Assembly: GCF_900176655.1 (NCBI RefSeq) | Contig: NZ_LT838843.1 | Coordinates: 241,400 to 305,399 of the forward strand | Reading direction: 5' to 3' | From: Collinsella vaginalis | Lineage (GTDB): Bacteria; Actinomycetota; Coriobacteriia; Coriobacteriales; Coriobacteriaceae | Length of the DNA stretch: 64,000 bases | In this document: positions 29,523 through 45,790 of the stretch, in pieces | Numbering within the stretch: the stretch's first letter is position 1 | How the letters are laid out: each line of letters begins with the position of its first letter | The notes under the pieces: generated by a model | What the model saw: only the letters and a program-made list of their open reading frames with translations | What the model was told of the DNA's origin: nothing | Database searches by the model: none | Made by a program: the position numbers and the translations under genes

Positions 29523-29766
29523 CAAATGCATCCTTTCCATTGCGCAGTGCCCGTGTGCGGGCATAGTGTAGAGGATGAGCTTAAACGAGTGCGTTCTGGG
29601 ATTTCCAGAGCGCAAGCTTTGCAAACCCATTCAGATGTCGCTGGTCTCGCTTGCTGGTTCTCAAGCTGTTTCAAGCGGAGACCTCAAAGAAAAACAAGCG
29701 ATATTTCGGTCACTTTCCATTTTCTGTTCGTTAACTGTGCACTTTTATAGTCTTACTCTCCATAAC
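29523..29766. other. AT-rich divergent intergenic region
   Basis: Base composition drops sharply from about 29690, marking the edge of the sugar island. No gene is supported in it. Confidence 0.5.
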
Positions 29767-29794
29767 TTGGTTCAAAAATTTCAAAATATATAAA
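29767..29794 (+). promoter_or_regulatory. Candidate promoter of the isomerase-EIIBC-DeoR group
   Basis: TTGGTT (29767-29772) and TATAAA (29789-29794) are 16 bp apart inside a run of A and T rich sequence, 110 bp before the first gene. Confidence 0.45.
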
Positions 29795-29904
29795 AATATT
29801 TGGAAAAAAATGATATGTTGTGACCACCAAGGAGCAGGACGGTCGCGAACGGACTCCCTTGCAAACACGGTTTTGACGGCAGTACTGGGAGGGCGCTTGC
29901 ACAC

Positions 29905-30843
29905 ATGAAAATCGCAACACGCATCAATTCGTTTTTCAGGGAAGGGGACCGAGATCTCAAGCGGGTGCTTGCCCGTTTCAGCGAAATCGGGCTCACCCAC
30001 GTCGACCTCAACTACCCTGAGCATGTATCGGGCATTGATGCCGAGGCAATGAAAGGGTTGTTGAACGGTTATGGCCTGACCCTAAACGGAGTCGCCCTGC
30101 GTTTCCGTGAGAAGTTCATCAACGGGGAGCTCGGCAACGCCGATACCGAGGTGGCTCGTTCTGCACTCAAGCTCTGCCACGAGGCATGTGATTATTGTCG
30201 CATCGCCGGCGGTGACACCGTTACGATATGGCTTGGGTTCGATGGTTTCGACTATAGTTTCCAGATCGACTACGACCGTGTGTTCAGGCAGCTGGTCCAC
30301 CAATTCCAAGATATCTGTGACTACGCTCCTGATCTGCACATCTCGATCGAATATAAGCCTTTCCAAGAGCGCTCCTATGCGTTTATTGACAGTATGGGAC
30401 TGGTGTCCTGGATCGTGTCGTCGGTCGATCGCAAAAATTTGGGCGTGACACTCGACTACTGCCACATGCTCATGAAACACGAGAACCCGGCAATGGCCGC
30501 CGATCTTTTCGGCGCGCGTGGGAAGCTTTTCGGAATCCATCTGAACGATGGATACGGAACTATGGATGACGGCCTCATGGTCGGAATGTCTACACCGGTC
30601 AAAACGCTCGAGCTGCTGTATTACCTGAAGAAGCACGGTTTCGACCACACACTGTACTTCGACACGTTCCCCGTGATCGAGGATGCCTCGGATGAATGCA
30701 GGCAGAACATCGAGACCCTGCGCCTTCTTCTCAAAGCGCTTGATTCAGTTGGAGAGAAAAAGATACAGCAGGTGATCGACAGCAACGATGCGATTCAATC
30801 GGCGGTTTTGGTGCGCGAGCTGTTTTGCGCGATGGGAAGGTGA
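29905..30843 (+). CDS. Xylose-isomerase-like TIM-barrel sugar isomerase/epimerase
   Basis: The 312-residue protein belongs to the AP-endonuclease-2/xylose-isomerase-like superfamily. Metal ligands are visible in ISIEYKPFQERSY (Glu), GVTLDYCHMLMKHENP (Asp, His), FGIHLNDGYGTMDDG (His) and LYFDTFPV (Asp). The sugar substrate cannot be read from sequence. The start ATG 29905 follows gggaggg, somewhat far. Codon use is less GC-rich than in the housekeeping genes, in line with acquisition of this module. It is followed within five bases by the start of a PTS permease, so both likely act on the same sugar. Confidence 0.82.
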   Translation: MKIATRINSFFREGDRDLKRVLARFSEIGLTHVDLNYPEHVSGIDAEAMKGLLNGYGLTLNGVALRFREKFINGELGNADTEVARSALKLCHEACDYCRIAGGDTVTIWLGFDGFDYSFQIDYDRVFRQLVHQFQDICDYAPDLHISIEYKPFQERSYAFIDSMGLVSWIVSSVDRKNLGVTLDYCHMLMKHENPAMAADLFGARGKLFGIHLNDGYGTMDDGLMVGMSTPVKTLELLYYLKKHGFDHTLYFDTFPVIEDASDECRQNIETLRLLLKALDSVGEKKIQQVIDSNDAIQSAVLVRELFCAMGR

Positions 30844-30848
30844 GTGCG

Positions 30849-32220
30849 GTGAAACGTGATTGGGAAAAGATGGCGGAGGACGTTTTAGCGGCGGTAGGGG
30901 GGGGAGGAGAACATTGCCGGTATGACGCATTGCGCAACCCGCTTGCGCCTGAACCTGCATGATGAATCTGCGGTTGACGATGGCGCTGTGAAAGCGGTCG
31001 ATGGCGTCATAAACACTGTTAGCAAGGCCGGACAGTATCAGATTCTCATCGGGACCGAGGTTCCGAAGCTCTACGAGCGCTTTGAATCCCTCGTGGGAGG
31101 GAAGGGCCGCAACGAGGTGGCAAAGGATAACGGCGGCGGTGCGGTCGCCCGCGTCTTCAGCGCTGTCTCAGGCATCTTCGCCCCGCTTCTTCCGGCGATG
31201 GCGGGATCTGGTATTTTGCGCGGTCTGCTCATCCTCGCTGTACAGCTCGGCCTGGTCGGAGAGGGATCGGGTACCTATGTGATCTGGGACACGTTGTCCA
31301 TGAGCGTGTTCTACTTCCTGCCGGTCTTGCTCGCCTTCTCTGCGGGAAAGCGTTTCGGGGCGAGCCCATACCTTTCGGCGCTCATCGGTGCATGCCTTCT
31401 GTATCCGGACTTCATTCAGTTGATGGGCGATATCGGTAACGGTGCGGTGAGCGAGTTCCTCGGCATACCGGTCATTTTGATGGGTTACAACTCGACTGTC
31501 GTTCCGGCGATCCTCGCCATCTGGGTGTACTCCTTCCTGTACAAGTTCCTTGACGATCGGATTCCCGAGACGCTGAAGCTCGTCCTTTTGCCTGCGATTT
31601 CGCTGTTCGTGATGGTCCCCCTCACCATCATGGTCATTGGTCCTGCAGGAGTTTACGTCGGCGAGGGCATCGCATTCGTGGTGAATTGGCTGATCGAGCG
31701 GAGCGCGATTCTCGCCGGCGTCCTCGTCGGCGGCGGTTGGTCGGTCCTCGTCTCCATGGGGATCCACTGGGCGGTCAACCCCATCATGATCAACAACATT
31801 GCGCAGAACGGGTTCGACTACATCTGCCCATTTACTTTTGCCTGCAATTTTGCGGTGATCGGTGTCGCGCTCGGCGTCTTCCTCAAGGCGAAGAATCGCC
31901 AATATAAGAGCTTTGCGATGAGCGGTGTCGTCACCATTGCGCTCTCGGCGATCATCGAGCCCACCTTGTTCGGCATGCTTGTGAATAACAAGAAGCTGTT
32001 TGCTGCTCAGATTATCGCCGGTGCAGCTGGCGGTGCGTTCCTCGGCCTGACGAAGGTCGTTGCGACGTCGTTCGTGTTCGGGTCCGTCACCACCTTCCCC
32101 GCGTTCGTGAGCGCGGATGCCGCGAACTTTGGGTTTGCGATGATCGGCCTTGCGATCTCACTGGTCGTGGGCGCCGTGCTCGGGTTCATCTTCACGGGCC
32201 GCGAGGATAAGCTCGCGTAG
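30849..32220 (+). CDS. PTS EIIBC permease with frame broken at a G8 tract (putative phase-variable gene)
   Basis: GTG 30849, eight bases after ggaagg, begins an EIIB domain (KRDWEKMAEDVLAAVGG). A run of eight G (30897-30904) then shifts the frame, and translation stops after about 37 codons. With seven G the frame would continue through ENIAGMTHCATRLRLNL, containing the phospho-accepting Cys, into a complete EIIC (about 10 membrane segments to 32220). The intact paralogue at 42195 has VGGKENVASLAHCATRLRF at the same place, which confirms the expected frame. As sequenced, only a product starting at ATG 30922 could be made, lacking about 24 EIIB residues. There is no EIIA domain. The sugar is unknown, of the glucose/sucrose/beta-glucoside class. 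Confidence 0.85.
30897..30904 (+). repeat. Homopolymeric G8 tract at the EIIB start
   Basis: Eight consecutive G between gta and agga. G-runs of this length slip easily during replication or transcription. Loss of one G restores the full EIIBC reading frame. Confidence 0.9.
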
Positions 32221-32245
32221 AGCAGGCTGATGCATGGAGCCGGTT

Positions 32246-32290
32246 GACCGGGGTGAGCGCTCTGATCGGGTGCTCGCCCCGGTCTTGTCA
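32246..32290 (+). terminator. Likely terminator after the EIIBC gene
   Basis: gaccggggtgagc (32246-32258) pairs with gctcgccccggtc (32272-32284) over 13 positions with one G-T pair. ttgtca follows, a weak T-run. Confidence 0.6.
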
Positions 32291-32334
32291 TACACTGTTT
32301 TCGAATAGCGGGGTGAGATGAGCTGGAGGGCCAC

Positions 32335-33072
32335 ATGATTCCCTACGAGCGGCGTAAATTCGTGCTACAGCACTTGAGCAAGGCGGAGTTTCTCCATATT
32401 GACGAGCTGCAGGAGCTGCTGCCCGACGTGTCCGTCTCAACGTTGCGCCGAGATCTGAAGGAGCTGGAGCGCGACGGCAAGATAGAGATGCTCTCGGGTG
32501 GGGGAGTCAAGCTCAATGCGGTCTCACACGAGCGTGGCGTTCAGGTGACCAGCGCGATGCACGCTGCCGAGAAGGAAGCCATCGCAGTGAGGGCTGCCCG
32601 GGAGGTGGAAGATGGGGACACCGTTTACATCGATTCAGGCTCGAGCTGCACCATGCTCCTCGCCCACCTGCTTGATCGAGATGTGACCATCTACACGGGA
32701 AATGGATCCGCGTGCTTGGTGAGCAGCGATGTTCGCGCGCATATCGTGATGATCGGTGGAGATTTCAACCCGCTCACGTCGTCTATGACGGGCCCCATCG
32801 CTGAGACGATCCTTGGCGAGATTTACTTCGATAAGGCGTTTCTCGGCGTGAATGCGGTGAGCTCCGAGCGTGGGATAACCAACCCAAGATATGATGAGGT
32901 CGCAAAGAAGCGCATCGTGAAGCAAAATTCCAGTGAAGTGTACGTGCTCTGCGATAGCAGCAAATTCCATCAGGTTTCAAACGTAAAGGTGTTCGATCTC
33001 AAAGGCCTTACCATCATCTCCGAGAAGGACGACGAGCGTTTGCGCAAATATGCGAGGATCCTAACTCCGTAG
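32335..33072 (+). CDS. DeoR/GlpR-family transcriptional regulator
   Basis: The 245-residue protein has an N-terminal winged helix (MIPYERRKFVLQHLSKAE, with recognition helix VSVSTLRRDLKELERDGK at about 32-49). A C-terminal sugar-phosphate sensor domain follows (DTVYIDSGSSCTMLLAHL, IYTGNG, MIGGDFNP, KAFLGVNAVSSERGITNP). This is the usual DeoR design, in which a phosphorylated sugar releases the repressor. It lies 115 bp after the EIIBC gene and probably controls the isomerase-EIIBC module, though a terminator separates them. The start ATG 32335 has only a weak site (ggagggccac). Confidence 0.88.
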   Translation: MIPYERRKFVLQHLSKAEFLHIDELQELLPDVSVSTLRRDLKELERDGKIEMLSGGGVKLNAVSHERGVQVTSAMHAAEKEAIAVRAAREVEDGDTVYIDSGSSCTMLLAHLLDRDVTIYTGNGSACLVSSDVRAHIVMIGGDFNPLTSSMTGPIAETILGEIYFDKAFLGVNAVSSERGITNPRYDEVAKKRIVKQNSSEVYVLCDSSKFHQVSNVKVFDLKGLTIISEKDDERLRKYARILTP

Positions 33073-33101
33073 TTGAGCTCGCACATGGTCGTTCATGCGG
33101 G

Positions 33102-34121
33102 TCATCGGTCGGCTTTGCCCAGGGTGGTTTCACGCTCGATGACACGATAAGGCACAACAATGCGTCGAGAGTCCGGTTCCCTTCCGGCTACTAAATCAAG
33201 CATGGCTACTGCGCCCAGCCGCGCCATCTCGTCTGTGTCGCGTTCGACGGTTGAGATGCGTGGCGCGGACAGCTGCGAGTACACCGAGTTGTCCAAGCCG
33301 ATGACGAGCACATCCTTCCCCGGGATGAGGCCGCGTTCCTGTAGGGCCTCCACTGCGCCCAATGCTTGGCGGTCTCCCGTTGCCACGATTCCATCGAATT
33401 CGATCCCGCGATCGAGGGCGCCGAGGACAAGCTCCCTTGATTCCACGCGGCTCTTCTTGAGATGCGGGCCGATGATTTCCAGATCTGGATCAAATTCCAG
33501 GCCGTGCGCCTCAAGCCCCGCTCGATACCCTTCATATATTGGGTGCTCAGGCCTGAAGGCTCGAAGAGCGTCGAGCAGGAGCAACATGATTCGGTTGCAT
33601 CCATGGCGGGCAAGCGTGTCGACTTGATCATGGGTTGCTTTCTCCAGATCGGTGCCGATGCTCACGCTGTTTTCAGATGTAGAACTGCTTGTGAAGTCGA
33701 TGAACACATGCGGCAGCGTGGAGTTCGAAGCAATGTCTTTGGGGCCAGATCCGCCCACAATGAAGATGCCGTCGCAGTTGTGCCTCCTCAGTTCGCGAAT
33801 GTACTCCTCGAGCTGTCTTGAGTCATAGAGCGTGTTGCATATGAACGAGGTGTATCCACTCAGCCGCATGAGGCGTTCTATCTCCAACACAATGGACGAG
33901 AAGTACTCGTTGCTCACGTCGGTGGTGATGATGCCGACCGTATGCGAGATGCCACTGTGCAATCCGCGTGCCGCAAGGTTGGTGACATAACCGTGTTCAG
34001 CAGCCGCATCGAGCACCAGCTTGCGCGTTTTTTCGGAGAACCTTCCTCGTCCGTTGAGGACATTTGAGACTGTGGTGGCGCTCACCCCGGTCAGTTTCGC
34101 AAGGTCGTAGATTGAGATCAT
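33102..34121 (-). CDS. LacI-family regulator of the lactose/cellobiose-type PTS operon
   Basis: The 339-residue protein has an N-terminal HTH (ISIYDLAKLTGVSATTVSNV, then hinge-forming LNGRGRFSEKTRKLV) and a periplasmic-binding-protein-like effector domain (VGIITTDVSNEYFSSIVLE, GLDNSVYSQLSAPRISTVERD). ATG 34121 follows aaggag; the ATG at 34166 adds 15 residues before the HTH and is less likely. It is divergent from the PTS operon at 34371, and the shared region holds two perfect TTTATCGATAAA palindromes, the likely binding sites. It converges with the DeoR gene 30 bp away. Confidence 0.9.
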   Translation of the reverse strand: MISIYDLAKLTGVSATTVSNVLNGRGRFSEKTRKLVLDAAAEHGYVTNLAARGLHSGISHTVGIITTDVSNEYFSSIVLEIERLMRLSGYTSFICNTLYDSRQLEEYIRELRRHNCDGIFIVGGSGPKDIASNSTLPHVFIDFTSSSTSENSVSIGTDLEKATHDQVDTLARHGCNRIMLLLLDALRAFRPEHPIYEGYRAGLEAHGLEFDPDLEIIGPHLKKSRVESRELVLGALDRGIEFDGIVATGDRQALGAVEALQERGLIPGKDVLVIGLDNSVYSQLSAPRISTVERDTDEMARLGAVAMLDLVAGREPDSRRIVVPYRVIERETTLGKADR

Positions 34122-34195
34122 GGGGAGGGGCTCCTTGGTGACGAAGTTTCCCCTCATGATAGCCAAAGCGTCGTAACGGAAGTTTCCACAGTTGA

Positions 34196-34207
34196 TTTAT
34201 CGATAAA
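34196..34207. promoter_or_regulatory. Operator palindrome TTTATCGATAAA, LacI-proximal copy
   Basis: A perfect 12-bp palindrome with the central CG typical of LacI operators, 74 bp upstream of the LacI start. It is identical to the copy at 34290. Confidence 0.7.
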
Positions 34208-34242
34208 CCATTTACCGAAGATTTCCTACCGCTCAACTGAAG

Positions 34243-34260
34243 TGAGAAAACGTTTGCTCA
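34243..34260. promoter_or_regulatory. Palindrome centred on AAACGTTT between the two operators
   Basis: tgagaaaacgtttgctca is an 18-bp palindrome with one mismatched pair, and it overlaps a TTGCTC that could serve as a -35. It resembles LacI/CcpA-type sites and may bind a second LacI-family protein. Confidence 0.5.
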
Positions 34261-34289
34261 AATTCTCCAAGAGAAATGAGTATGGTTGC

Positions 34290-34301
34290 TTTATCGATAA
34301 A
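34290..34301. promoter_or_regulatory. Operator palindrome TTTATCGATAAA, PTS-proximal copy
   Basis: Identical to 34196-34207, 94 bp apart, and 69 bp before the EIIB start codon. Confidence 0.7.
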
Positions 34302-34370
34302 TCATGCGGCAGAGAGAAAGGCTGCCGCAAGTGAATGACCACACATGGCCGAATAAAGAAGGGGTGCACT

Positions 34371-34670
34371 ATGAGAAAGATCGTTTTGATTTGCGCTGCG
34401 GGCATGTCCACCAGTCTTCTGGTGACGAAGATGCGCAACGCGGCGGCAGAGGAGGGCTATGAGTGCGAGATCGACGCCTATCCCATGGCTGAGGCTGCAA
34501 CAGCTGTGGAGGGCGCCGATATCGTGCTGCTAGGGCCCCAGGTCCGCTTCAACCTGGAGAAGGTCCGATCCCTGGCGTCCTGCCCCGTTGAGCCCATCGA
34601 GATGAGCGCCTATGGCCGCATGGACGGAGAGGCCATCCTCGAGTTCGTCCAGGAGGTGCTCGATGACTAG
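34371..34670 (+). CDS. PTS lactose/cellobiose-type EIIB
   Basis: The 99-residue protein starts MRKIVLICAAGMSTSLLVTK, the Lac/Cel EIIB phosphate loop with phospho-accepting Cys8. The second half has ADIVLLGPQVRF, typical of ChbB/CelA. It receives phosphate from EIIA and passes it to the incoming sugar at EIIC. ATG 34371 follows aaagaagggg. The stop codon overlaps the start of the EIIA gene. It is the first gene of a likely six-gene operon: EIIB, EIIA, EIIC, two GH1 enzymes and an unknown-family protein. Confidence 0.92.
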   Translation: MRKIVLICAAGMSTSLLVTKMRNAAAEEGYECEIDAYPMAEAATAVEGADIVLLGPQVRFNLEKVRSLASCPVEPIEMSAYGRMDGEAILEFVQEVLDD

Positions 34671-34983
34671 CTTCGAGGAACTCACTTCCACGAGTTTCGA
34701 GATCATCGCAGCTGTGGGCGCTGCGCGCAGCTGCTACATCGAGGCCATTCATCAGGCGAAAAACGGAGACTTCGAAGCGGCGGGCGCATCCATCGCCCAG
34801 GGCAGAGAGTTGTACGCCACCGGACACCATGCCCATCTCGGCCTCATCCAGCAGGAGGCATCAGGTGATCCAACGCCCATGTGCCTCATGTTGACGCATG
34901 CCGAGGATCAGCTCATGAGCGCCGAAGGTTTCGGCATCTTGGCTGAGGAGTTCGTGGATATGTACAAGGCCGTGCGCGGCTGA
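34663..34983 (+). CDS. PTS lactose/cellobiose-type EIIA
   Basis: This 106-residue helical protein carries GHHAHLGLIQQEASGD near residues 47-62 and LTHAEDQLMSAE near 77-88. The second motif includes the conserved His/acidic patch of the LacF/CelC trimer family. It transfers phosphate from HPr to EIIB. ATG 34663 overlaps the EIIB stop by eight bases and follows aggagg at six bases, so translation is coupled. Confidence 0.92.
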   Translation: MTSFEELTSTSFEIIAAVGAARSCYIEAIHQAKNGDFEAAGASIAQGRELYATGHHAHLGLIQQEASGDPTPMCLMLTHAEDQLMSAEGFGILAEEFVDMYKAVRG

Positions 34984-35038
34984 TTTCACCTGACGTCCGA
35001 CAAAGCACTTGTTTCCCCAACGTAAAGGAGGGACCGAC

Positions 35039-36391
35039 ATGGAAGAGCAGACCAAGAAATCTCCCATGGAGGCGTTCACCGACCTCATGATGAAATTCTC
35101 CGGCCCGGTCGCGAAATTCGCCGAGCTCCCAGCGATTCAGGCCGTCCAAAACGGCCTCATCGCCGTCATGCCCCTGATCATCATCGGCTCGCTGTTCCTG
35201 ATCATCGCGCTCCTCGGCACCGATGCCATTGGCGGTGTCGTGCTGCTGCCCTTCATATCGCCTTTCACTGAGAAGCTTCTGGTCATGAACAGCCTGACGA
35301 TGAGTTTCCTGTCCGCTTACTGTGCCGTGGCGATCCCGATGTCCTACGCCGAGAAGCTCGGCGAGAACCAGAAGACCTGCGGCGTGCTCGGTCTGGCGAT
35401 CTTCTTCGTCTTCACCTTGAACGGCGTGGTGGACGGGCAGATCTCAGTGACCGCGTTCTCCGCGACGGGCTTGTTCGCCGTGATCATCTCATCGCTTCTG
35501 GGCGTGCGGTTGTACAAGCTCGTGACTGATCGCAACATCACCATCAAGATGCCCGAGTCTGTGCCGCCGGCGATTGGCAATGCGTTCACCTCCCTCATCC
35601 CGTTCGCCGTCGTCCTCACGGTGTGCTGGTTCATCCGCACGCTGCTTGATTTTGATCTGGTCGCCTTCCTCACCACGGCCCTCACGCCCTTGGTGTCTGC
35701 AGCGGATAATATGGGCGTCTATGTGCTCGATCGCACCGTCTCCGCCCTGCTGTGGAGTGTGGGCCTGCACGGCGACAACATGTGGACCACCCCGATCTTC
35801 CAGCCGTTCACGCTCATGTGGACGGAGGAGAACGCGGCTGCCATGGCCGCCGGCCAGGCTCTGCCGCACATCTGGACCAACTCCGGTATCGACCGCATCT
35901 CCACGTGGCCTGCGCTGGTTTGGCCTCTGATCTTCCTTATGGTGACCTCAAAGGTCAAATACCTCCGCACCCTCGGTTGGGCCTGTCTGCCCGCCGCCGT
36001 GTTCACCATCGTCGAGCCGGTCATCTTCGGCCTTCCCGTGGCGCTGAATCCGTTCCTGATCATCCCGTTCATCATCATCGCCCTGGTCTCCGCCGTATTC
36101 TCGTATGGGTTCTTCGCCCTGGGGCTCTGTGCGAAGTTCTTCGTCACGATGCCTTGGGCGACGCCGCCGTTCATCCTGGGCCCGCTGGGCACCGGTGATT
36201 TCCGCGCGCTCATCGTGACCGCCGGCTGCTTCATCATCGGCCTGCTCATCTACATCCCCTTCTGGCGCATGTTCGAGAAGCATTTGCTTGAGGAAGAGGA
36301 GAAGAAGGCCGCGAAGAAGGCGGCTCGCAAAGCGGCTCGGGAGGCGGCAAAGCTTCAGGGGGACGCCGCATCCGGCATCGAGGCCAAATAG
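35039..36391 (+). CDS. PTS lactose/cellobiose-type EIIC permease
   Basis: This 450-residue membrane protein has about ten helices (LIAVMPLIIIGSLFLIIALL near the start) and the family's sugar-binding region GDNMWTTPIFQPFTLMWTEE and WTNSGIDRISTWPALVW. VIFGLPVALNPFLIIPFII is also a Cel/Lac EIIC hallmark. It translocates and phosphorylates a beta-glucoside-type sugar with EIIA and EIIB. The C-terminus is a 35-residue Lys/Ala/Glu tail (KKAAKKAARKAAREAAK) that looks like a charged helix. ATG 35039 follows aaaggagg. The two GH1 enzymes downstream fit a phospho-beta-glucoside substrate. Confidence 0.93.
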   Translation: MEEQTKKSPMEAFTDLMMKFSGPVAKFAELPAIQAVQNGLIAVMPLIIIGSLFLIIALLGTDAIGGVVLLPFISPFTEKLLVMNSLTMSFLSAYCAVAIPMSYAEKLGENQKTCGVLGLAIFFVFTLNGVVDGQISVTAFSATGLFAVIISSLLGVRLYKLVTDRNITIKMPESVPPAIGNAFTSLIPFAVVLTVCWFIRTLLDFDLVAFLTTALTPLVSAADNMGVYVLDRTVSALLWSVGLHGDNMWTTPIFQPFTLMWTEENAAAMAAGQALPHIWTNSGIDRISTWPALVWPLIFLMVTSKVKYLRTLGWACLPAAVFTIVEPVIFGLPVALNPFLIIPFIIIALVSAVFSYGFFALGLCAKFFVTMPWATPPFILGPLGTGDFRALIVTAGCFIIGLLIYIPFWRMFEKHLLEEEEKKAAKKAARKAAREAAKLQGDAASGIEAK

Positions 36392-36437
36392 AGCGTTCGC
36401 TCGTCAGTGCAACTCATCTAATGAAAGGACGCAACGC

Positions 36438-37925
36438 ATGTCATTCCCAGATGGTTTTCTGTGGGGCGGGGACATCTCCGCCGCGCAGATCGAAGGTGCA
36501 TGGGACGAGGACGGCAAGTCGCCCACCGAGGTCGACTACATGGTGAGCGTGGACCGCAACAGCGCGCTTCGCTATGGGTACTACGAGATGCCCGATGGCA
36601 CCGAGGGAACGATGATGCTCTTCTCCGGTCAGTTGCCCGCGGGAGCCAAGATGATCATCAAGGACGGGGTGAACTACTCCAACCATGTGGCGTCCGACTT
36701 CTACCACCATTGGAGGGAGGATCTCGCCCTGCTCGCCGAGATGGGTTTCAAGGCGTTGAACCTCACCATCTCGTGGGCGCGCATCTTCCCGACCGGTGTG
36801 GCGGGCGGTGTGAACCAAGCGGGCGTCGAGTTCTACCGGAATGTGCTCACGGAGTGCAACCGACTGGGCATGGAGCCCATCATCACGCTGTACAAGTACG
36901 ACATGCCGTTCTTCTACATCTCCGACTGGGGTGGCTGGTCCAACCGCAAACTCATCGATGAGTTCGTCGAGTTCTCCCGTGTGTGCATGACCGAGTACCA
37001 GGGCCTATCGCACCACTGGATCACCTTCAACGAGCTCAATATTCTGAAACTCATGGAGCGGAGCAACCCTGATGTCGATCAGGCCGCACGTCAGCGTCTG
37101 TATGAGGAGGCGCACAACCAGATGGTCGCCGCCGCGCGCGTGGTGCAGCTTGGACATGAGATCGATCACGACAACCAGGTGGGCTGCATGATCGCCGGCA
37201 CGTTCTGCTATCCTCTCACGCCCGACCCGGCAGATGTCGCCGCCGCGCAGAGGTACATGCGTGACACGATGTTCTTCTACGGCGATACGCAAGTGCGCGG
37301 CGCCTATCCCTCTTATGCGAAAAGTCTGCTCGCCTCGAATGGCGTGACGCTCGAGGTCTCCGACGAAGACGCTGCGGACCTCATGGCCGGCAAGGCGGAC
37401 TTCTATGCATTCTCCTATTACAGTTCGAGCTGCGCCACCACGCATGCCGATGAGGGAGAGAGCGGCGCCGGCAATATGACGCAGCACGGCGTGAAGAACC
37501 CCTACGTGAGCGCGACCGACTGGGGCTGGCAGATCGACCCCGAGGGTCTCAAGACCGCGCTGAACATGCTGTCCGATCGCTATCCCGACACGCCGCTGCT
37601 CATTGTTGAGAACGGCATCGGCGCCATCGACACGCTTGAGGACGACGGCACCATCCACGATCCCTATCGCATCGAGTATCTGCGCGACCATATCGCCAAG
37701 ATGGGCGAGGCCGTTGATGAGGGCGTGAACCTCATCGGCTACACCATGTGGAGTTGCATCGACCTGATCTCCGCCGGCACCGGTGAGATGCGCAAACGCT
37801 ACGGTTTCGTGTACGTGGACGCGGCGGATGACGGCACGCCCCAGGGCAGCTTCAAGCGCTACCGCAAAGACAGCTTCCACTGGTATAAGTGCGTATGCGA
37901 GTCCAACGGCGCTGACCTCGGATAG
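36438..37925 (+). CDS. GH1 6-phospho-beta-glucosidase-like enzyme, copy 1
   Basis: This 495-residue glycoside hydrolase family 1 protein has the acid/base Glu in WITFNELNIL near residue 199 and the nucleophile in LLIVENGIGAID near 390. The N-terminus reads FLWGGDISAAQIEGAW. Near the C-terminus, SAGTGEMRKRYGFVYVD contains the Ser-x-x-Lys-x-Tyr phosphate-binding pattern of 6-phospho-glycosidases. It would split the phosphorylated disaccharide delivered by the PTS. An insert after residue 30 (SVDRNSALRYGYYEMPDG) is longer than in BglA-type enzymes. ATG 36438 follows aaagga. The sugar linkage is not determined by sequence. Confidence 0.9.
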   Translation: MSFPDGFLWGGDISAAQIEGAWDEDGKSPTEVDYMVSVDRNSALRYGYYEMPDGTEGTMMLFSGQLPAGAKMIIKDGVNYSNHVASDFYHHWREDLALLAEMGFKALNLTISWARIFPTGVAGGVNQAGVEFYRNVLTECNRLGMEPIITLYKYDMPFFYISDWGGWSNRKLIDEFVEFSRVCMTEYQGLSHHWITFNELNILKLMERSNPDVDQAARQRLYEEAHNQMVAAARVVQLGHEIDHDNQVGCMIAGTFCYPLTPDPADVAAAQRYMRDTMFFYGDTQVRGAYPSYAKSLLASNGVTLEVSDEDAADLMAGKADFYAFSYYSSSCATTHADEGESGAGNMTQHGVKNPYVSATDWGWQIDPEGLKTALNMLSDRYPDTPLLIVENGIGAIDTLEDDGTIHDPYRIEYLRDHIAKMGEAVDEGVNLIGYTMWSCIDLISAGTGEMRKRYGFVYVDAADDGTPQGSFKRYRKDSFHWYKCVCESNGADLG

Positions 37926-37977
37926 CTCGCCAACTCATGTTCGTCAATTCGTTTTCGCTACAGCGAGGTATTTCATC

Positions 37978-39438
37978 ATGTCATTTCCTGAGCATTTCCT
38001 ATGGGGCGGTTCAATCAGCGCCGCCCAGGTTGAGGGCGGTTGGAACGAGGGCGGCAAAAGCCCCGTCCAGATTGATTACGCCGGTCCGGATGCCGGTATC
38101 GGGCACCGTCCGGTGTACTATCGCGCCGCCGACGGCGCCCGAGGGGTCATGCGCCAGTTCGACCGCCTTCCCGAGGGCGCACGCTACGAGCTGTTCGACG
38201 ATGTGAGCTACACCAACCATGATGCCACCGACTTCTACCATCACTGGCGCGAGGATCTCGCCCTGTTCGCCGAGATGGGGCTCACCACGTTCAACACCAC
38301 GGTGTCATGGGCGCGCATCTACCCGCAGGGCGTGGCCGGCGGTGTGAACAGGGAAGGTGTTGAGTTCTATCGACAGGTGTTCACCGAGGCGCGGCGCCTA
38401 GGTATGGACCCGGTCATCACCCTGTACAAGTACGACGAGCCCATCTATTTCGAGGAGACCTACGGCGGATGGGACAACCGCGCCATGATCGATGAGTTCG
38501 TGGCGTTCGCGCGCACCTGCTTCACCGAGTATCGCGGCCTCATCGACAAATGGGTCACCTTCAACGAGATCAACGTGCTCATGATGTTCGACCCTGAGAA
38601 CCCACGGCGCATCGTGGAGACGCACAACCAGATGGTCGCCTCTTCCTTGGCGGTGCAGGCTGCTCACGAAATCGATCCCGAGCTGCGCGTGGGCTGCATG
38701 ATCGCCGGTCAATGCTCCTACCCGTATACCTGCGATCCGGCCGATGCTCTCGCCAACCAGCAGGCCATGCAGGAGCGCTTCTTCTACTGCGCAGACACCA
38801 TGGTGCGCGGGCGCTATCCCAGCTGGGCCAGGCGTGTGCAGGCCAAGCACGGTGCCGCTGACTTCACTTGCTCAGATGAGGATGCTGCTGTTCTCGCTGT
38901 CGGCAAGTCGGATTTCATGGCGTTCTCCTACTACAGCTCGGCTGTAGTGACCACGCACGAGCTCACGGACGATGAGGTGGCCGGCAACCTGTCCACCAGT
39001 GTCAAGAACCCCTACGTCAAGGCGAGCGCCTGGGGCTGGCAGATGGACCCCACGGGCTTCCGTTATTTCCTGAACGTCATGAATGATCGATACGATGTGC
39101 CGTTGTTCGATGTGGAGAACGGTCTCGGCGCAGTTGACGAGCCGGTTATCGAGGACGGCGAGCTGCGGATCCACGACACGTATCGCATCGACTACCTGCG
39201 CGATCACATCGCCAACCTCAAGGCCGCCATCGAGGAGGACGGTATCAACATATTCGGCTACACCACCTGGGGGCCCATTGATCTGGTGGCGTTCACAACG
39301 GGCCAGATCAAGAAGCGCTACGGCTTCATCTACGTGGATCGGCACGATGACGGCACAGGTGACTTCGCCCGGCACCGTAAGGACAGCTTCTTCTGGTACC
39401 AGCGTGTTATAGCCACGAACGGTGAGACCCTGGGGTAG
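37978..39438 (+). CDS. GH1 6-phospho-beta-glucosidase-like enzyme, copy 2
   Basis: The 486-residue protein is a clear paralogue of the preceding gene, with acid/base Glu in WVTFNEINVL near 197 and nucleophile in LFDVENGLGAVD near 380. It shares the same unusual insert after residue 30 (GPDAGIGHRPVYYRAADG). The phosphate-binding loop reads AFTTGQIKKRYGFIYVD, where a Ser normally present is replaced by Phe-Thr, so its phospho-sugar preference may differ. ATG 37978 follows gcgaggt. Two neighbouring non-identical copies suggest cleavage of two linkages or two related sugars taken up by the same PTS. Confidence 0.88.
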   Translation: MSFPEHFLWGGSISAAQVEGGWNEGGKSPVQIDYAGPDAGIGHRPVYYRAADGARGVMRQFDRLPEGARYELFDDVSYTNHDATDFYHHWREDLALFAEMGLTTFNTTVSWARIYPQGVAGGVNREGVEFYRQVFTEARRLGMDPVITLYKYDEPIYFEETYGGWDNRAMIDEFVAFARTCFTEYRGLIDKWVTFNEINVLMMFDPENPRRIVETHNQMVASSLAVQAAHEIDPELRVGCMIAGQCSYPYTCDPADALANQQAMQERFFYCADTMVRGRYPSWARRVQAKHGAADFTCSDEDAAVLAVGKSDFMAFSYYSSAVVTTHELTDDEVAGNLSTSVKNPYVKASAWGWQMDPTGFRYFLNVMNDRYDVPLFDVENGLGAVDEPVIEDGELRIHDTYRIDYLRDHIANLKAAIEEDGINIFGYTTWGPIDLVAFTTGQIKKRYGFIYVDRHDDGTGDFARHRKDSFFWYQRVIATNGETLG

Positions 39439-39609
39439 GAAGTTCCGGCGTGGCGTTTCAGGCCACATGGTCCGGAGGCCACTGCTCGATAGGGAGGCTC
39501 GTTGCGTACGGGCCTCCTGTTTTCGGGTGCGGTGCAACGGTTGAGAGCTATCGTGCCCCAGCTCGCTTTCATGCAACTGTTAATCGTTTTGTACGTGAAA
39601 GGAGAGAGC

Positions 39610-40557
39610 ATGTCACACGACATGATTCGTCTCATCTCGGCTTCAAAGCGTGATTTTGTGCATATGACCCCGGCAGATCTCAAGCTCTCCATTCAAAAGT
39701 CGGAAGGTCGTGCTGTCATGGGACAGCACTGTCTCATCAATGCGATGGGGGAGGGTCTTGTACAGCATGTGACCAACTCAGAGCTCATGTTCGCCTTCGG
39801 TGCGGATATGGTGCTCTTGAACGCCTTCGACTTCGATGACCCGTCCATGAATCTTGGCCTGCATGGCTTGAGCTACGCCGAGCTCAAGGAGCGCTGCGGT
39901 TACCGACCTATCGGCATCTATCTAGGTTGCTCGCCATATGTCGTGCCCAGTGCGCAAGATGAGGGGCGATATAACCCCATGGGCATGCACGCATCTCCCG
40001 AACACGTGGCGCAAGCTGTTGCGTGGGGCGTCGACTTCATCGTGCTCGGCGGTGATCCCGGAACGGGTACCAAGCTCGAGGACATCATCGAGACCACGCG
40101 CTGGATAAAGGAGCGGTATGGGGACGAGGTGCTCGTGTTCGCCGGCAAGTGGGAGGACGGTGTGACCGAGAAGGTCCTGGGTGACCCTACGGCTTCGTTC
40201 GACTCACGTGAGATGGTCAAGCGTCTGATCGATGCCGGTGCCGATGTGATCGACCTGCCGTGCCCTGGAACCAGGAGCGGCATCACCGTTTCGGACATCC
40301 GGGACCTCGTGACCCTCACGCACACGTATAAGCCCGGCACGCTCGCCATGGTGTTCCTCAACAGTTCAGTTGAAGGTGCCGATGTGGATACGATCCGTCA
40401 GATCGCACTGCTCATGAAGCAGACGGGCGCCGATATCAATGCGATTGGCGACGGCGGCTTCACCGGTATCTCGATGCCTAAAAACATCCACCAGCTCTCC
40501 GTGTCACTCAAAGGTGAGCAATACACCTATTTCCGTATGGCAAGCGCCAACCGATAG
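39610..40557 (+). CDS. Unknown-family TIM-barrel-like protein, copy 1
   Basis: I do not recognise a function. The 315-residue protein has alternating beta/alpha character with motifs RAVMGQHCL, NSELMFAFGADMVLLNAFDF, RPIGIYLGC, FIVLGGDPGTGT, LVFAGKWEDGV, LIDAGADVIDLPCPGTRSG and INAIGDGGFTGIS. The repeated strand-end glycine/aspartate pattern suggests a phosphate-binding (beta/alpha)8 barrel. Family members of this kind may be filed as DUF7916 and have been labelled HAD-like, but the DxD motif of HAD enzymes is missing. ATG 39610 follows aaaggaga. It is the last gene after two GH1 enzymes; a second copy sits after the EIIBC gene at 42195. A role in phospho-sugar conversion is inferred from context. 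Confidence 0.75.
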   Translation: MSHDMIRLISASKRDFVHMTPADLKLSIQKSEGRAVMGQHCLINAMGEGLVQHVTNSELMFAFGADMVLLNAFDFDDPSMNLGLHGLSYAELKERCGYRPIGIYLGCSPYVVPSAQDEGRYNPMGMHASPEHVAQAVAWGVDFIVLGGDPGTGTKLEDIIETTRWIKERYGDEVLVFAGKWEDGVTEKVLGDPTASFDSREMVKRLIDAGADVIDLPCPGTRSGITVSDIRDLVTLTHTYKPGTLAMVFLNSSVEGADVDTIRQIALLMKQTGADINAIGDGGFTGISMPKNIHQLSVSLKGEQYTYFRMASANR

Positions 40558-40633
40558 GGGTTGCAGCTGCCGGGCGCCCTCTTGGGTCGGATCAGGTGAA
40601 ACGACCTGTTCGGTAAATTTGCGGTCTGTTTGA

Positions 40634-40681
40634 GTATACGTTTTCTCATCTCGTGGTATCATCAATTGCGTAAACGATTAC
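40634..40681 (+). promoter_or_regulatory. Paired operators and -10 of the epimerase/isomerase operon
   Basis: GTATACGTTTTC (40634-40645) and GTAAACGATTAC (40670-40681) are two CG-centred LacI-type sites exactly 36 bp apart. A TATCAT -10 lies between them (40657-40662). The same arrangement and spacing recurs at 42090-42137. Confidence 0.75.
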
Positions 40682-40768
40682 CTACGTATTGTTCTGGCAA
40701 TCGAACAGCGGTGGAGGCAAGACGCCATCGCCTGTCAACAGGTCATTCAACAGAAGGGAAGCACTGCC

Positions 40769-41422
40769 ATGCTATTGTGTTCGAGCATGATGTGCGCAGA
40801 CTTCGGCGCGCTGCGTGATGAGGTCCAGGTGCTTGACACCGCGGGCGTCGACATCTTCCATTGCGACATCATGGACGGCACCTTCGTGCCCAACATCACC
40901 ATGGGGCTCATGGACGTGAAGGCGATCCGCGCCGCCACGGACAAGCCCATCGACTGCCACCTCATGGTCGAGAACCCGAGCGCCAAGGTGGATCTCTTCC
41001 TCGACGCCGGCGTCGACATCATCTACATCCACCCTGAGTCTGAGCGCTATGTGGTGAAGACGCTCGCGCACATCAAAGAGCGAGGTGCGTCCACTGGGTT
41101 GGTCATCAACCCCGATACCTCGATCGAGACCGTCTCAGAGATGCTCAACCTTGCGGATTACGTCATGGTGATGACCGTGAATCCAGGGTTCGCCGGTCAG
41201 AAGTTCATTGACTTCACCGCAAAGAAAATCGATCGCTTAGCGGCGCTCAAGGATGAGTATGGATTCAAGCTCATGATCGACGGCGCCTGCAGCCCAGCGC
41301 GCGTGCGCGAGTTTTCCGCACGGGGCGTGGACGGATTCGTCCTCGGCACCAGCGCGCTGTTCGGTAAGGGTAAACCGTATGCGGAGTGCCTCGAGGACCT
41401 TCGCCAGGGAAAGGATTATTGA
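40769..41422 (+). CDS. Rpe/AlsE-family phospho-ketose 3-epimerase
   Basis: The 217-residue TIM barrel has FHCDIMDGTFVPNITMG (metal His/Asp), DCHLMVENP, IYIHPESERY, VMTVNPGFAGQKFI and LMIDGACSPARVREF. Several details (MCADF opening, HPE, MTVNPGFAGQ, DG.C in place of VDGGI) look closer to D-allulose-6-phosphate 3-epimerase (AlsE) than to housekeeping ribulose-phosphate epimerase. It would interconvert allulose-6-phosphate and fructose-6-phosphate, or ribulose-5-P and xylulose-5-P. ATG 40769 follows agaaggga. It is co-transcribed with an RpiB-like isomerase just downstream, as in alsE/rpiB pairs. The exact sugar is inference. Confidence 0.85.
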   Translation: MLLCSSMMCADFGALRDEVQVLDTAGVDIFHCDIMDGTFVPNITMGLMDVKAIRAATDKPIDCHLMVENPSAKVDLFLDAGVDIIYIHPESERYVVKTLAHIKERGASTGLVINPDTSIETVSEMLNLADYVMVMTVNPGFAGQKFIDFTAKKIDRLAALKDEYGFKLMIDGACSPARVREFSARGVDGFVLGTSALFGKGKPYAECLEDLRQGKDY

Positions 41423-41423
41423 T

Positions 41424-41891
41424 ATGAAGATCGGAATCGGCAACGACCATACGGCCGTCGAGCTCAAGAACATCATCTCCGAGCACCTGAAGGAGCGCGG
41501 CATTGAGGTCGTGAACTTCGGCACCGACAGCACGGAGCGCTTCAACTACCCCGTGTCCGGGTACCGCGTGGGGAAGGCCGTGTCGTCCGGCGAGGTCGAC
41601 CTGGGGATCCTCATTTGCGGCACGGGCGTCGGCATCAGCCTCGCCGCCAACAAAATCCAGGGCGTGCGCGCGGTGGTGTGCTCGGAGCCGTACACGGCCA
41701 AGCTCTCGCGCGAGCACAACAACACGAACATTCTCGCATTTGGCGCCCGCGTGGTCGGCTCCGAGCTCGCGAAGATGATCGTCGATGAGTGGCTGGATGC
41801 GGAATTTGAGGGCGGCCGCCATCAGACCCGCATCGACATGATCGCCGAGATAGGGGAGACCCAGCATCTTGAGGCCGTAGACAAGGCGTAG
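41424..41891 (+). CDS. rpiB: RpiB/LacAB-family phospho-aldose isomerase
   Basis: The 155-residue protein has the RpiB features: KIGIGNDHTAVELK at the start, ILICGTGVGISLAANK with the catalytic Cys near residue 65, and a His-containing segment SREHNNTNILAFGARVVG. RpiB enzymes isomerise ribose-5-phosphate and often allose-6-phosphate. The ATG 41424 starts two bases after the epimerase stop, so the pair is coupled. Together they could turn allose-6-P into allulose-6-P and then fructose-6-P. A terminator follows at 41916. Confidence 0.9.
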   Translation: MKIGIGNDHTAVELKNIISEHLKERGIEVVNFGTDSTERFNYPVSGYRVGKAVSSGEVDLGILICGTGVGISLAANKIQGVRAVVCSEPYTAKLSREHNNTNILAFGARVVGSELAKMIVDEWLDAEFEGGRHQTRIDMIAEIGETQHLEAVDKA

Positions 41892-41915
41892 TGCCCCCGC
41901 ACATCATGTATTTCG

Positions 41916-41947
41916 GCGCCCCTGCCATGGTGTGGCGGGGGCGCTTT
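41916..41947 (+). terminator. Intrinsic terminator after rpiB
   Basis: gcgcccctgcca (41916-41927) pairs with tggcgggggcgc (41933-41944) with one G-T pair, followed by ttt. Confidence 0.75.
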
Positions 41948-42089
41948 CGTGCGGGCCGCTTGCACGGTGCCGCGTTTGGTGGTGTCTGAATGCGGCTGTC
42001 GGAGGTGTGGGTAACGCAGGCGGGTAACCGTCTTCCCATCCGGTTACTCGGCGGAATATAGCCGTTCACCTGACGCCCCCATTGATTGA

Positions 42090-42137
42090 GTATACGTTTA
42101 CCCAACATGTCGTATCCTTTGTTGTGTAAACGGTTAC
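42090..42137 (+). promoter_or_regulatory. Paired operators and -10 of the EIIBC operon
   Basis: GTATACGTTTAC (42090-42101) and GTAAACGGTTAC (42126-42137) are 36 bp apart with TATCCT (42113-42118) between. This is the same design and spacing as at 40634-40681. The second site would cover the transcription start. Confidence 0.75.
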
Positions 42138-42194
42138 CCATTCAATCTGCGGAGTGGGCGCACGTTGGATGGGAGCCCTTGAAGGAGGTACACC

Positions 42195-43562
42195 ATGAGT
42201 TCATACGACCAGCTCGCCTCCGACGTCCTCAAGGGCGTTGGCGGCAAGGAGAACGTGGCGTCGCTGGCGCACTGCGCCACACGTCTGCGCTTCAAGCTCA
42301 AAGACAGCGCGAAGGCGGACAAGGCCGCTGTCGAGAAGACCAAGGGCGTCGTTGCCGTGGTGGAGCAGGGCGGCCAGTTCCAGGTTGTCATCGGTAACAC
42401 GGTCGGCGACGTGTATGACGCGATCGGGGCCCAGGGGGTCACGCTGGGCGGTTCGGTTGACGATGATGTGGTGAGCAAAGACGATCTCAAGGTGAAGGGC
42501 AAGGCCATCGACCGTGTGGTCGATCTCGTGACGAGCATCTTCACGCCGGTGCTTCCCGCCCTCATCGGCGGCGGTATGCTGAAGGCGCTCCTGATGGTTG
42601 CGACGACGTTCTTCGGCCTGTCGAATACGAGCGGCGAGTACATCATGCTCAACACGGTGGGGGATGCCATCTACTCCTCGCTTCCCATCGCGCTCGCGTT
42701 CACCTCGGCGCGCCGCTTCAAGGCGAACCCGATCATCGCCGTTATGCTCGGCATCGCCATGTGCTCAAAGGCCGTCGTTGGTGCTGACCCGCAGCTGGCC
42801 TTCTTCGGATTCCCCGTGGTCGGCCCCGCGCAGGGCTACGGCTCGACGGTGATCCCCATCATCGTGACGATCTGGTTCATGAGCGTCGTGGAGCATTTCC
42901 TCAACAAGGTGCTGCACCCGTATGTGAAGAACATCCTGAACCCCCTGTTCACCCTGCTCCTGGTGGGGCCGGCCATGTTCATGGTTATCGGTCCCGTCAT
43001 GTCGCTGCTGCAGAACGGCCTCACGGACGCGTACACCTGGATCTACAATCTTTCCCCCATCCTCTGCGGCGCCGTCCTCGGTGGCCTCTGGCAGGTGCTC
43101 GTGGTCGTTGGCCTGCACTGGGGCATCATTCCCATCGGGCAGATGAACCTTTCGGCCTACGGGCGCAACACCATCAACGCGGTGACCGGCCCCTCGAACT
43201 GGGCGCAGGCCGGGGCCGCGCTGGGAGGGGCCCTGCGCTCCAAGAATCCTGACATCAAGGAGACGGCGTTCTCGGCTTTCGTGACCGGCTTCTTCTCCAT
43301 CACCGAGCCCGCCATCTACGGCGTGAACCTAAAGTATAAGAAGCCGTTCTACATCGCAGTGGGCATGGGCGCGATTGCGGGCGCCATCGCGGGCTTCTCG
43401 AATGCCGCCGCGACGGCGGGCGGCCCTGTGGGTATCCTCTCCTTCCCGCTTTTCCTTGGTGAGGGCTTCGTCGGTTTCTGCATCGCCATGGTCGTGGCGC
43501 TCCTTGGAACCGCCATCCTCACGTACCTGTTCGGCTATGACGCCGTCAACGACCAAGGCTGA
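42195..43562 (+). CDS. PTS EIIBC permease, glucose/sucrose/beta-glucoside class
   Basis: The 455-residue protein opens with an EIIB domain (SSYDQLASDVLKGVGGKENV, phospho-Cys27 in HCATRLRFKL, then VAVVEQGGQFQVVIG). An EIIC of about ten helices follows (FTPVLPALIGGGMLKALLMV, VVVGLHWGIIPIGQMNLSAY, FFSITEPAIYGVNLKYKKPF). No EIIA domain is attached, so a separate EIIA must serve it. It is a homologue of the frame-broken EIIBC at 30849. ATG 42195 follows gaaggagg. Paired operators upstream tie it to the epimerase/isomerase operon; the substrate may be allose, allulose or a related sugar (inference). Confidence 0.92.
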   Translation: MSSYDQLASDVLKGVGGKENVASLAHCATRLRFKLKDSAKADKAAVEKTKGVVAVVEQGGQFQVVIGNTVGDVYDAIGAQGVTLGGSVDDDVVSKDDLKVKGKAIDRVVDLVTSIFTPVLPALIGGGMLKALLMVATTFFGLSNTSGEYIMLNTVGDAIYSSLPIALAFTSARRFKANPIIAVMLGIAMCSKAVVGADPQLAFFGFPVVGPAQGYGSTVIPIIVTIWFMSVVEHFLNKVLHPYVKNILNPLFTLLLVGPAMFMVIGPVMSLLQNGLTDAYTWIYNLSPILCGAVLGGLWQVLVVVGLHWGIIPIGQMNLSAYGRNTINAVTGPSNWAQAGAALGGALRSKNPDIKETAFSAFVTGFFSITEPAIYGVNLKYKKPFYIAVGMGAIAGAIAGFSNAAATAGGPVGILSFPLFLGEGFVGFCIAMVVALLGTAILTYLFGYDAVNDQG

Positions 43563-43651
43563 GCCTGCTTCCGACCGCTGCGGGCGCCGTTCGGGTGGGC
43601 CGCAGCGGCATTTGATAGTTGTGCCCCCTGGAACCTTCGAAAGGAATAATC

Positions 43652-44581
43652 ATGTCCGATCGTGTTCGCCTGATATCCGCATCCGCCTCAGACTTTGAAG
43701 GCTGGGATGCCATGACGTTGAAGGAGTCGATCCGCATGAGCGAGGGGCGCGTGGTCATGGGCCAGCACCTGCTTTTCGCCAGCCAGGGCCTGGTGCGCGG
43801 CGTGACCAACTCCGAGCTTCTGTTTGCCTTCGGTGCTGACATGGTGATGCTCAACACGTTCAACTTCAACAACGAGGAGGATAACCCAGGACTCCAGGGC
43901 CTCACGTTTGCTGAGCTCAAGGCCCGTTGCCGACGTCCGATCGGCGTGTACCTGGGCTGCCCGGGGAAGAACGCGCCTGATCAGCGGAAGCTCTATGACC
44001 CTGAGGGCATGTTGGCGACGCTGGAGCACGTCGACCGTGCTGTCGAGATGGGTGCGAGCTTCATCGTGCTCGGCGGCAATCCTGGGTCGGGGACAAGCAT
44101 TGAGGACGTGATCGCCACCACGGCATGGATCAAGGAGGGGTATGGCGACCGCGTCCTGCTTTTCGCGGGGAAGTGGGAGGACGGCGTGAACGAGCGCGTG
44201 CTCGGCGATCCGCTGGCAGACTACGATGCCAAAGATGTGATCCGTCGGCTCATCGACGCCGGTGCAGATGTGATAGACCTGCCGGCGCCCGGCTCCCGCA
44301 ACGGCATCTCGACCCACATGATTCAGGAGCTCGTACAGTACGTGCATACCTATAAGCCCGGTACGCTGGCGATGACGTTCCTGAACAGCTCGGTTGAGGG
44401 CGCGGACCCCGATACCGTGCGGCTGATCGCGCTGAAGATGAAGGAGACTGGCGCGGACATCCACGCGATCGGAGATGGCGGCTTCGCGGGGTGCACGAGT
44501 CCTGAGAACGTGCAGCAGCTTTCGATCTCGCTCAAGGGCAAGCCGTACACCTATTTCCGTATGGCGAGCGTCAACCGGTAG
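43652..44581 (+). CDS. Unknown-family TIM-barrel-like protein, copy 2
   Basis: The 309-residue protein is a close paralogue of the one at 39610, with the same motif order: RVVMGQHLLF, NSELLFAFGADMVMLNTF, RPIGVYLGCPG, FIVLGGNPGSGT, LLFAGKWEDGV, LIDAGADVIDLPAPGSRNG and IHAIGDGGFAG. The shared C-terminus reads SLKGKPYTYFRMASVNR. I cannot assign a reaction. ATG 43652 follows aaaggaa, 90 bp after EIIBC, in the same operon. Each copy stays next to a PTS module, so a step in sugar-phosphate metabolism is likely. Confidence 0.75.
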   Translation: MSDRVRLISASASDFEGWDAMTLKESIRMSEGRVVMGQHLLFASQGLVRGVTNSELLFAFGADMVMLNTFNFNNEEDNPGLQGLTFAELKARCRRPIGVYLGCPGKNAPDQRKLYDPEGMLATLEHVDRAVEMGASFIVLGGNPGSGTSIEDVIATTAWIKEGYGDRVLLFAGKWEDGVNERVLGDPLADYDAKDVIRRLIDAGADVIDLPAPGSRNGISTHMIQELVQYVHTYKPGTLAMTFLNSSVEGADPDTVRLIALKMKETGADIHAIGDGGFAGCTSPENVQQLSISLKGKPYTYFRMASVNR

Positions 44582-44683
44582 CGGTTGCCGTCTGAGCGAG
44601 GGGCGGATGCGGGCGGAGTCCGATGGGTTTACCCGCGGGGCTTCGCCCGCTCTTCATATGCAGCGGGGCCGCTCGGGAAACGA

Positions 44684-44712
44684 GTAATCGTTTCCTCAAA
44701 ACCGTTTATACT
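44684..44712 (+). promoter_or_regulatory. Operator and -10 before the LacI gene (autoregulation candidate)
   Basis: GTAATCGTTTCC (44684-44695) fits the operator pattern GTAWWCGWTTWC seen at 40634 and 42090, with one deviation. It lies within a larger inverted repeat (ggaaacga/tcgtttcc, 44676-44695). A TATACT -10 follows at 44707-44712. Confidence 0.55.
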
Positions 44713-44768
44713 ATGATTCCAAGAGGTGACCGGGGCTATGGCCGGTCTAGATCGATCGGGAGGCAGCG

Positions 44769-45779
44769 ATGGCATCGGGCAGGCCGTCTATACGCGATAT
44801 CGCACAGCTGGCAGGTGTCTCGGTTGCAACCGTTTCCCGCGTCATAAACGATAATGGCAGGTTCTCCGAGGAGACCAGGAAGCGGGTCCTGAAGGTCATC
44901 GACGAGAGCGGCTACGTCGCCAACATGGCGGCGCGCAGCCTGCGCAGCTCGAAGTCAGGCAATATCGGCATGATCGTGCCGGACATCTCAAACGACTTCT
45001 TCTCGAGTGTCGCACTTCATGTGGAGCGCGAGCTGGCAGGGCAGGGCTATTCCGTATTCGTGTGCAACAGCGGCAATGACGCGGAGCGCGAGAAGAACTA
45101 CTTCCGCACCCTCACGAGCAAGCTCGTGGACGGCATCATCTGCATCAGCGGCTTGAATTCGCTGAACGCCGATCTGCTGACCTCCCGCATCCCTGTGGTC
45201 TGCGTGGACCGGTATCCCGATAGCGCGCGGTTTGTCCCGCGCGTATCCTCTGACGATGTCAAGGCCTCGCGGATGGCGACCGAGCATCTGATCGACCGTG
45301 GCTGCAGGCACATCCTGTTCATGTCGAGTTTCACCGTCGACTACGGTCGCCGTGACCGCGAGGCCGGGTACCGTGAGGCCCATGCAGCCCATGGCCGGGC
45401 GCCGAAGGAAAGCGATCTCATCTATATCACCGGTGCGAAACCGAGCATGGTGGAGGCCGAAGAGCTCATCACGCGCTACCTCGACGAACATGGCTGCGAT
45501 TTCGACGGCATCTTCGCCTCGAGCGACCATGCGGCCGTGGGGTGCCTGAACGCCCTCCGCACAGCCGGCATCGATGTTCCGGGGCAGGTTCGCCTCGTGG
45601 GGTACGACGACTCCGTGTACTCACGCCTTACTTCCCCGCAGATCACGAGTGTGCAGCGCCACACTGACCAACTCGCCGCGCGCGGTTGCGAGGCGCTGCT
45701 CACCCTCCTGTCCGGCGAGGTTCCCCCGCTCGAGACGTTCGTTCCGACGGAGCTCGTTGAGCGCGAATCCTCGCGCTAG
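44769..45779 (+). CDS. LacI-family regulator, probably of the AlsE/RpiB/EIIBC regulon
   Basis: The 336-residue protein has HTH PSIRDIAQLAGVSVATVSRV, hinge INDNGRFSEETRKRVLKV and effector domain IGMIVPDISNDFFSSVAL, VCVDRYPD, LVGYDDSVYSRLTSPQITSV. It is similar in length and layout to the LacI protein at 33102. ATG 44769 follows gggaggcagc. The gene lies downstream of the EIIBC operon, with an operator-like site in its own promoter. That site and the paired operators at 40634 and 42090 make this the natural regulator of all three transcription units (inference). Confidence 0.9.
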   Translation: MASGRPSIRDIAQLAGVSVATVSRVINDNGRFSEETRKRVLKVIDESGYVANMAARSLRSSKSGNIGMIVPDISNDFFSSVALHVERELAGQGYSVFVCNSGNDAEREKNYFRTLTSKLVDGIICISGLNSLNADLLTSRIPVVCVDRYPDSARFVPRVSSDDVKASRMATEHLIDRGCRHILFMSSFTVDYGRRDREAGYREAHAAHGRAPKESDLIYITGAKPSMVEAEELITRYLDEHGCDFDGIFASSDHAAVGCLNALRTAGIDVPGQVRLVGYDDSVYSRLTSPQITSVQRHTDQLAARGCEALLTLLSGEVPPLETFVPTELVERESSR

Positions 45780-45790
45780 AAGCCGACTGT

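Follow-up and report, generated by a model that had tools for sequence, protein, structure and literature searches.

An eight-guanine tract at the frame break of a PTS EIIBC gene in Collinsella vaginalis, a possible recent slippage null allele

Introduction

Among actinobacteria, two described systems resemble the locus analysed here, in which a change in the length of a guanine tract decides whether a gene is read through. In Mycobacterium tuberculosis, a one-base expansion of a GGGGGGG tract in glpK creates a reversible glycerol catabolism variant that was found in 45 of 1,031 Peruvian isolates (PMC6667613). In the gut actinobacterium Bifidobacterium breve, the sortase-pilus switch (bbr_0113, bbr_1889) relies on intragenic G tracts that split the gene into two frames (PMC9187656). 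The lineage of the present genome belongs to a class in which all analysed members, the Coriobacteriia, are devoid of both NucS and MutS-MutL (PMC5290159). We found no report of phase variation in Collinsella in the literature.

Here, we analysed a 64,000-nt stretch of the C. vaginalis genome, referred to as the window, for which a preliminary description had proposed a sugar PTS permease that is phase-variable through a tract of eight G.

Results

The EIIBC gene is the second gene of a conserved unit that lies within a sugar-utilisation island:

29542 to 46147, no strand assigned: sugar-utilisation island of 16.6 kb including the operon; the close relative G025 has about 0.5 kb in its place, between flanks of conserved synteny
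29905 to 30843, plus strand: epimerase/isomerase with a xylose-isomerase-like TIM barrel, encoded first in the operon
32335 to 33072, plus strand: intact gene for a DeoR-family regulator, in third place in the conserved unit
42195 to 43562, plus strand: paralogous EIIBC, intact, 455 aa, used as comparison gene

G025 served as the close relative for comparison, and a 20-kb query was used for the island. The stop codon of the epimerase/isomerase gene and the EIIBC start are separated by 5 nt, and the order TIM-barrel epimerase, EIIBC, DeoR regulator is common to Coriobacteriaceae and lactobacilli (L037, L038, L040, L041). In two of these loci, the unit is followed by an EIIA gene (L040, by Pfam; L037, by sequence); unlike there, no IIA gene adjoining the DeoR gene was seen in the window. 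Besides the operon, the island carries a lactose/cellobiose-type PTS, two GH1 glycosidases, a ribulose-phosphate epimerase, RpiB, a second EIIBC, two LacI regulators and two DUF7916 proteins. The DUF7916 paralogues (39502-40557 and 43619-44581) flank the Rpe-RpiB-EIIBC set. EIIBC is a patchy accessory gene: it occurs in 6 of 67 genomes of the family and, within the genus, in the present genome only, as searches of the 44 other genomes at both the DNA and the protein level returned no close homologue of the operon.

The EIIBC gene itself falls into the following parts:

30849 to 30962, plus strand: gene start in the upstream frame (GTG, 37-codon peptide, TGA), aligning with ATGAAGCGGGATTGG of the orthologues L038 and L044
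30897 to 30904, plus strand: G8 homopolymer encoding the invariant Gly-Gly of EIIB, according to the tract-length reading and the alignment
30922 to 32220, plus strand: remainder of EIIBC, read in the other frame (432 aa counted from the first ATG), with the phospho-cysteine and the whole EIIC

The GTG start and the remainder of this glucose-superfamily PTS EIIBC gene are in different frames, split at the G8 tract, exactly as the preliminary description had stated. The tract covers codons 17-19, is flanked by A on either side and is the only G/C run of at least 7 within the window. The upstream frame runs from the GTG at 30849 over 37 codons (VKRDWEKMAEDVLAAVGGGGEHCRYDALRNPLAPEPA*) to the TGA at 30960-30962, in agreement with the earlier view that the allele reads OFF. 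A TAG at 30895-30897 closes the EIIC frame, which is therefore open only from 30898; the first ATG in this frame is located at 30922, and the frame ends with the TAG at 32220. Trying tract lengths of 5 to 12, we obtained one joined frame with 7 or 10 G only, giving 456 or 457 aa. The reading frame of EIIBC is set by the length of a homopolymeric tract, as in a contingency locus.

With 7 G, the read-through contains a complete Pfam EIIB domain (profile 2-34, E 6e-15) and an EIIC domain, both exceeding the Pfam cut-offs as in a glucose-superfamily EIIBC, whereas the open frame alone retains half of EIIB (profile 17-34, E 1e-6). The 7-G reading aligns column for column with the orthologues and paralogues, including the invariant residues G17, G18, N21, H27 and C28; two of these, the tract-encoded glycines, are invariant in an alignment of 26 sequences. 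The earlier expectation that seven G would yield a full-length EIIBC was thereby borne out for every orthologue and paralogue compared, and the intact 455-aa paralogue to which it had referred is real. In alignments across the 1.37 kb of the gene, we found no second lesion, and the phospho-cysteine motif MTHCATRL is retained in the open EIIC frame; the gene is otherwise intact. The protein resembles the beta-glucoside-type EIIBC of TIGR01995 (glucose superfamily PTS) in the EIIB-EIIC order, the HCxTRL phospho-site and its full-length alignment; it scores under the curated cut-off of this IIABC model, as expected for a protein without a fused EIIA domain. A function as sugar transporter and phosphorylator is predicted from these similarities. 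When the read-through protein was modelled with AlphaFold (mean pLDDT 82), helix 1 comprised residues 5-15 and strand 1 residues 22-27, and a fold search matched EIIB structures as well as the MalT-like fold of EIIC. According to this model, a product restarted at ATG 30922, which is residue 25, would lack the helix and half of the strand and would keep Cys28.

A search of genome contigs identified orthologues with 64-80% identity in Enorma massiliensis (recorded as Collinsella massiliensis), E. burkinafasonensis, uncultured Coriobacteriaceae and lactobacilli, and Bacillus relatives near 40% identity. The EIIBC remainder shares 76-81% identity with the orthologues of the Coriobacteriaceae. Comparison with the orthologues gave a dN of 0.14-0.18 and a dS of 1.1-1.6, corresponding to a dN/dS of about 0.1-0.14 with dS near saturation. 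At the Gly-Gly site, none of the orthologues and genus paralogues (about 40 loci of other species) carries a G run; they use GGC, GGT, GGA or a single GGG, and among these relatives the G8 tract is, judged by the sequences compared, private to the present genome. The E. massiliensis orthologue has a TAG (L037, around 3154-3156) where its sisters have AAG, between EIIB and EIIC, which is either an independent loss or an error in the E. massiliensis draft.

A run of at least 8 G is no rare chance event across the genome (about 32 in 2.16 Mb). Such runs were nearly all located between genes in the 31 stretches that were sampled, and we rejected the idea that they form a set of in-gene switches. 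Elsewhere in these stretches, in-gene G/C runs of at least 8 were seen in a PLP enzyme gene (L106, near an N), trpA (L117) and whiA (L118). Coding G/C runs of 6-7 are depleted, lying well under a synonymous-codon shuffle; for coding runs of at least 8, none was observed against a shuffle mean of 2, a non-significant difference that covers called genes only and leaves out the disputed 30849-30921. Because runs of at least 8 are mostly intergenic and coding runs of 6-7 are depleted, chance does not suffice to explain a G8 that lies within a gene and precisely where the frame breaks. We also rejected the present genome as a G-run outlier, as its density is like that of G025 (58 against 64 matches), with several hundred or more in three other genomes; in a comparison of run lengths with G025, one run, of 6, was shared. 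Two repeat copies (G10 in L094, G9 in L095) were set aside as evidence for slippage, both being located beside scaffold gaps.

Some further runs are recorded here in their own right. Close to its 3' end, trpA (L117 1354-2076) has a G8 (G000:C14:2851-2858), about 150 bases away from the terminus of a 3-kb contig; beyond this G8, the reading frame gives LLDPVRKTLDR, which is similar to the C-terminus of a relative (FLTPIREELDR), and by this comparison trpA appears to be frameshifted at a G8 as well. In whiA (L118 1295-2248), a C14 run (G000:C19:8823-8836) by an N and between inverted-repeat arms is out of frame, a break that looks like an assembly fault. A G8 (L092 2039-2046) and a G10 (L110 2023-2032) are positioned just upstream of the start codons of an O6-methylguanine methyltransferase and an extracellular solute-binding protein, respectively, where tract length could affect translation.

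Mismatch repair appears to be missing in the lineage. Searches of the present genome and 20 relatives yielded neither MutS1 nor a MutL over the curated cut-off, whereas of 14 control genomes 11 passed each of the two cut-offs. The only MutL signals were N-terminal matches under the cut-off, probably from other GHKL ATPases. With both proteins missing from the searches, slippage should therefore be frequent and reversible.

Discussion

Our data are best explained, with a probability of roughly 0.5, by a recent +1 slippage null allele of an otherwise intact EIIBC that is revertible in principle. A recent slipped-strand replication error would have turned G7 into G8 at codons 17-19 of the conserved gene. 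The G8 allele would be OFF, with the product from GTG 30849 stopping at 37 codons and a product restarted at ATG 30922 lacking helix 1 and part of strand 1 of EIIB, and sugar uptake would presumably be lost. Since the tract is uninterrupted, a second lesion was not found and mismatch repair is apparently missing, losses of a single G should restore the frame, and they may do so at an appreciable rate. Such reversibility would be a by-product of hypermutability and not an evolved device. From this one assembly we infer the direction of change, its rate, its reversibility and the effect on sugar uptake; the ancestral tract length (7 or 10) would follow from the protein alignment alone, because the tract is present in no other genome. 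Against the recent-slippage reading, it has to be mentioned that a tract of eight G is short if switching is to be fast.

If the true tract had 7 G, the gene would be intact and G8 a sequencing or assembly error. G tracts are hard to size (PMC9187656), and the assembly is an imperfect scaffolded draft: single Ns are positioned exactly at broken or displaced gene alignments, which in the surrounding contig region (G000 C2 161401-365399, L178-L184 plus the window) suggests misjoined contigs, the core gene whiA is broken by the C14 run beside an N, and trpA by the G8 close to a contig end. However, the window is free of N and the nearest one is more than 29 kb away from the tract. Moreover, 73 genes (88 kb) orthologous with G025 showed no frameshift, including ten G/C6 runs that were all in frame, in a scan with a power of 75% (54 of 72 planted one-base insertions recovered) whose controls were runs of 6 and none of 7 or 8. 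We therefore regard an error as possible but not favoured. A real and fixed frameshift could also mark an early pseudogene, a dispensable accessory transporter that starts to decay. The patchy operon and the lack of the island in G025 point in this direction, as do the independent AAG-to-TAG nonsense codon of E. massiliensis, the second EIIBC and the lactose/cellobiose-type PTS on the same island and the missing IIA gene after the DeoR gene. Yet, the 1.37 kb show no further lesion and the gene has diverged under strong purifying selection until now, which makes this explanation unlikely, although a very recent loss would look alike.

An evolved contingency locus would imply that selection keeps the G tract as an on/off switch of sugar uptake and that cells with 7, 8 and 10 G coexist. 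The tract is close to the 5' end, a position at which a homopolymeric switch is effective (PMC2831843), and it encodes Gly-Gly as GGG GGG before GAG, which is unusual in the EIIBC family, in a genome that otherwise depletes long G runs within genes. The B. breve pilus tracts provide a precedent from a gut actinobacterium (PMC9187656). In contrast, the tract occurs at none of the roughly 40 orthologue and paralogue loci of related species, 44 other genomes of the genus lack a close homologue, a second allele was not observed and our literature search retrieved no report of PTS genes switched by slippage. The frame break, the lack of a second lesion and a slippage-favouring background remain from the phase-variable switch proposed earlier, but the switch as such is rather improbable; ordinary recent slippage accounts at least as well for one private G8 within an accessory gene. 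The more far-reaching scenario, in which a gut Coriobacteriaceae species without known mismatch repair uses the G tract of a PTS permease for bet-hedging of sugar uptake, possibly among several G-tract loci such as the trpA G8, would be a long shot. Finally, the G8 allele might still be expressed, either by a restart at ATG 30922, 12 nt behind an AGGAG (30905-30909) and with the MTHCATRL motif kept, or by transcriptional or ribosomal slippage. We consider this highly improbable: the restart would delete the modelled elements of EIIB described above, the internal Met also occurs in orthologues that are intact and have no tract (L036, L038, L044), so that nothing marks it as a start, and no frameshift-stimulating element was noted. 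The earlier suggestion that transcriptional slippage might leave low expression has no counterpart in the sequence.

In case of an error or a pseudogene, the locus matters for annotation only. If the recent slippage allele is real, a further actinobacterial carbon-metabolism gene besides the mycobacterial glpK would be silenced by a G7-to-G8 slip, and homopolymer slippage would contribute measurably to metabolic variation among gut Coriobacteriia, a class reportedly without MutSL and NucS. Like the B. breve pilus switch (bbr_0113, bbr_1889), the locus combines an intragenic G tract with a gene split into two frames in a gut actinobacterium; the pilus tracts differ by their length (G10-G12), by equivalents in several species and by measured length mixtures, compared to 8 G in one genome here. 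The glpK variant is known from many isolates and lineages and is tied to drug tolerance, in contrast to our single assembly and a different gene (PMC6667613). What it has in common with the EIIBC allele is the one-base expansion of a G7 tract in an otherwise intact carbon-utilisation gene of an actinobacterium without MutSL.
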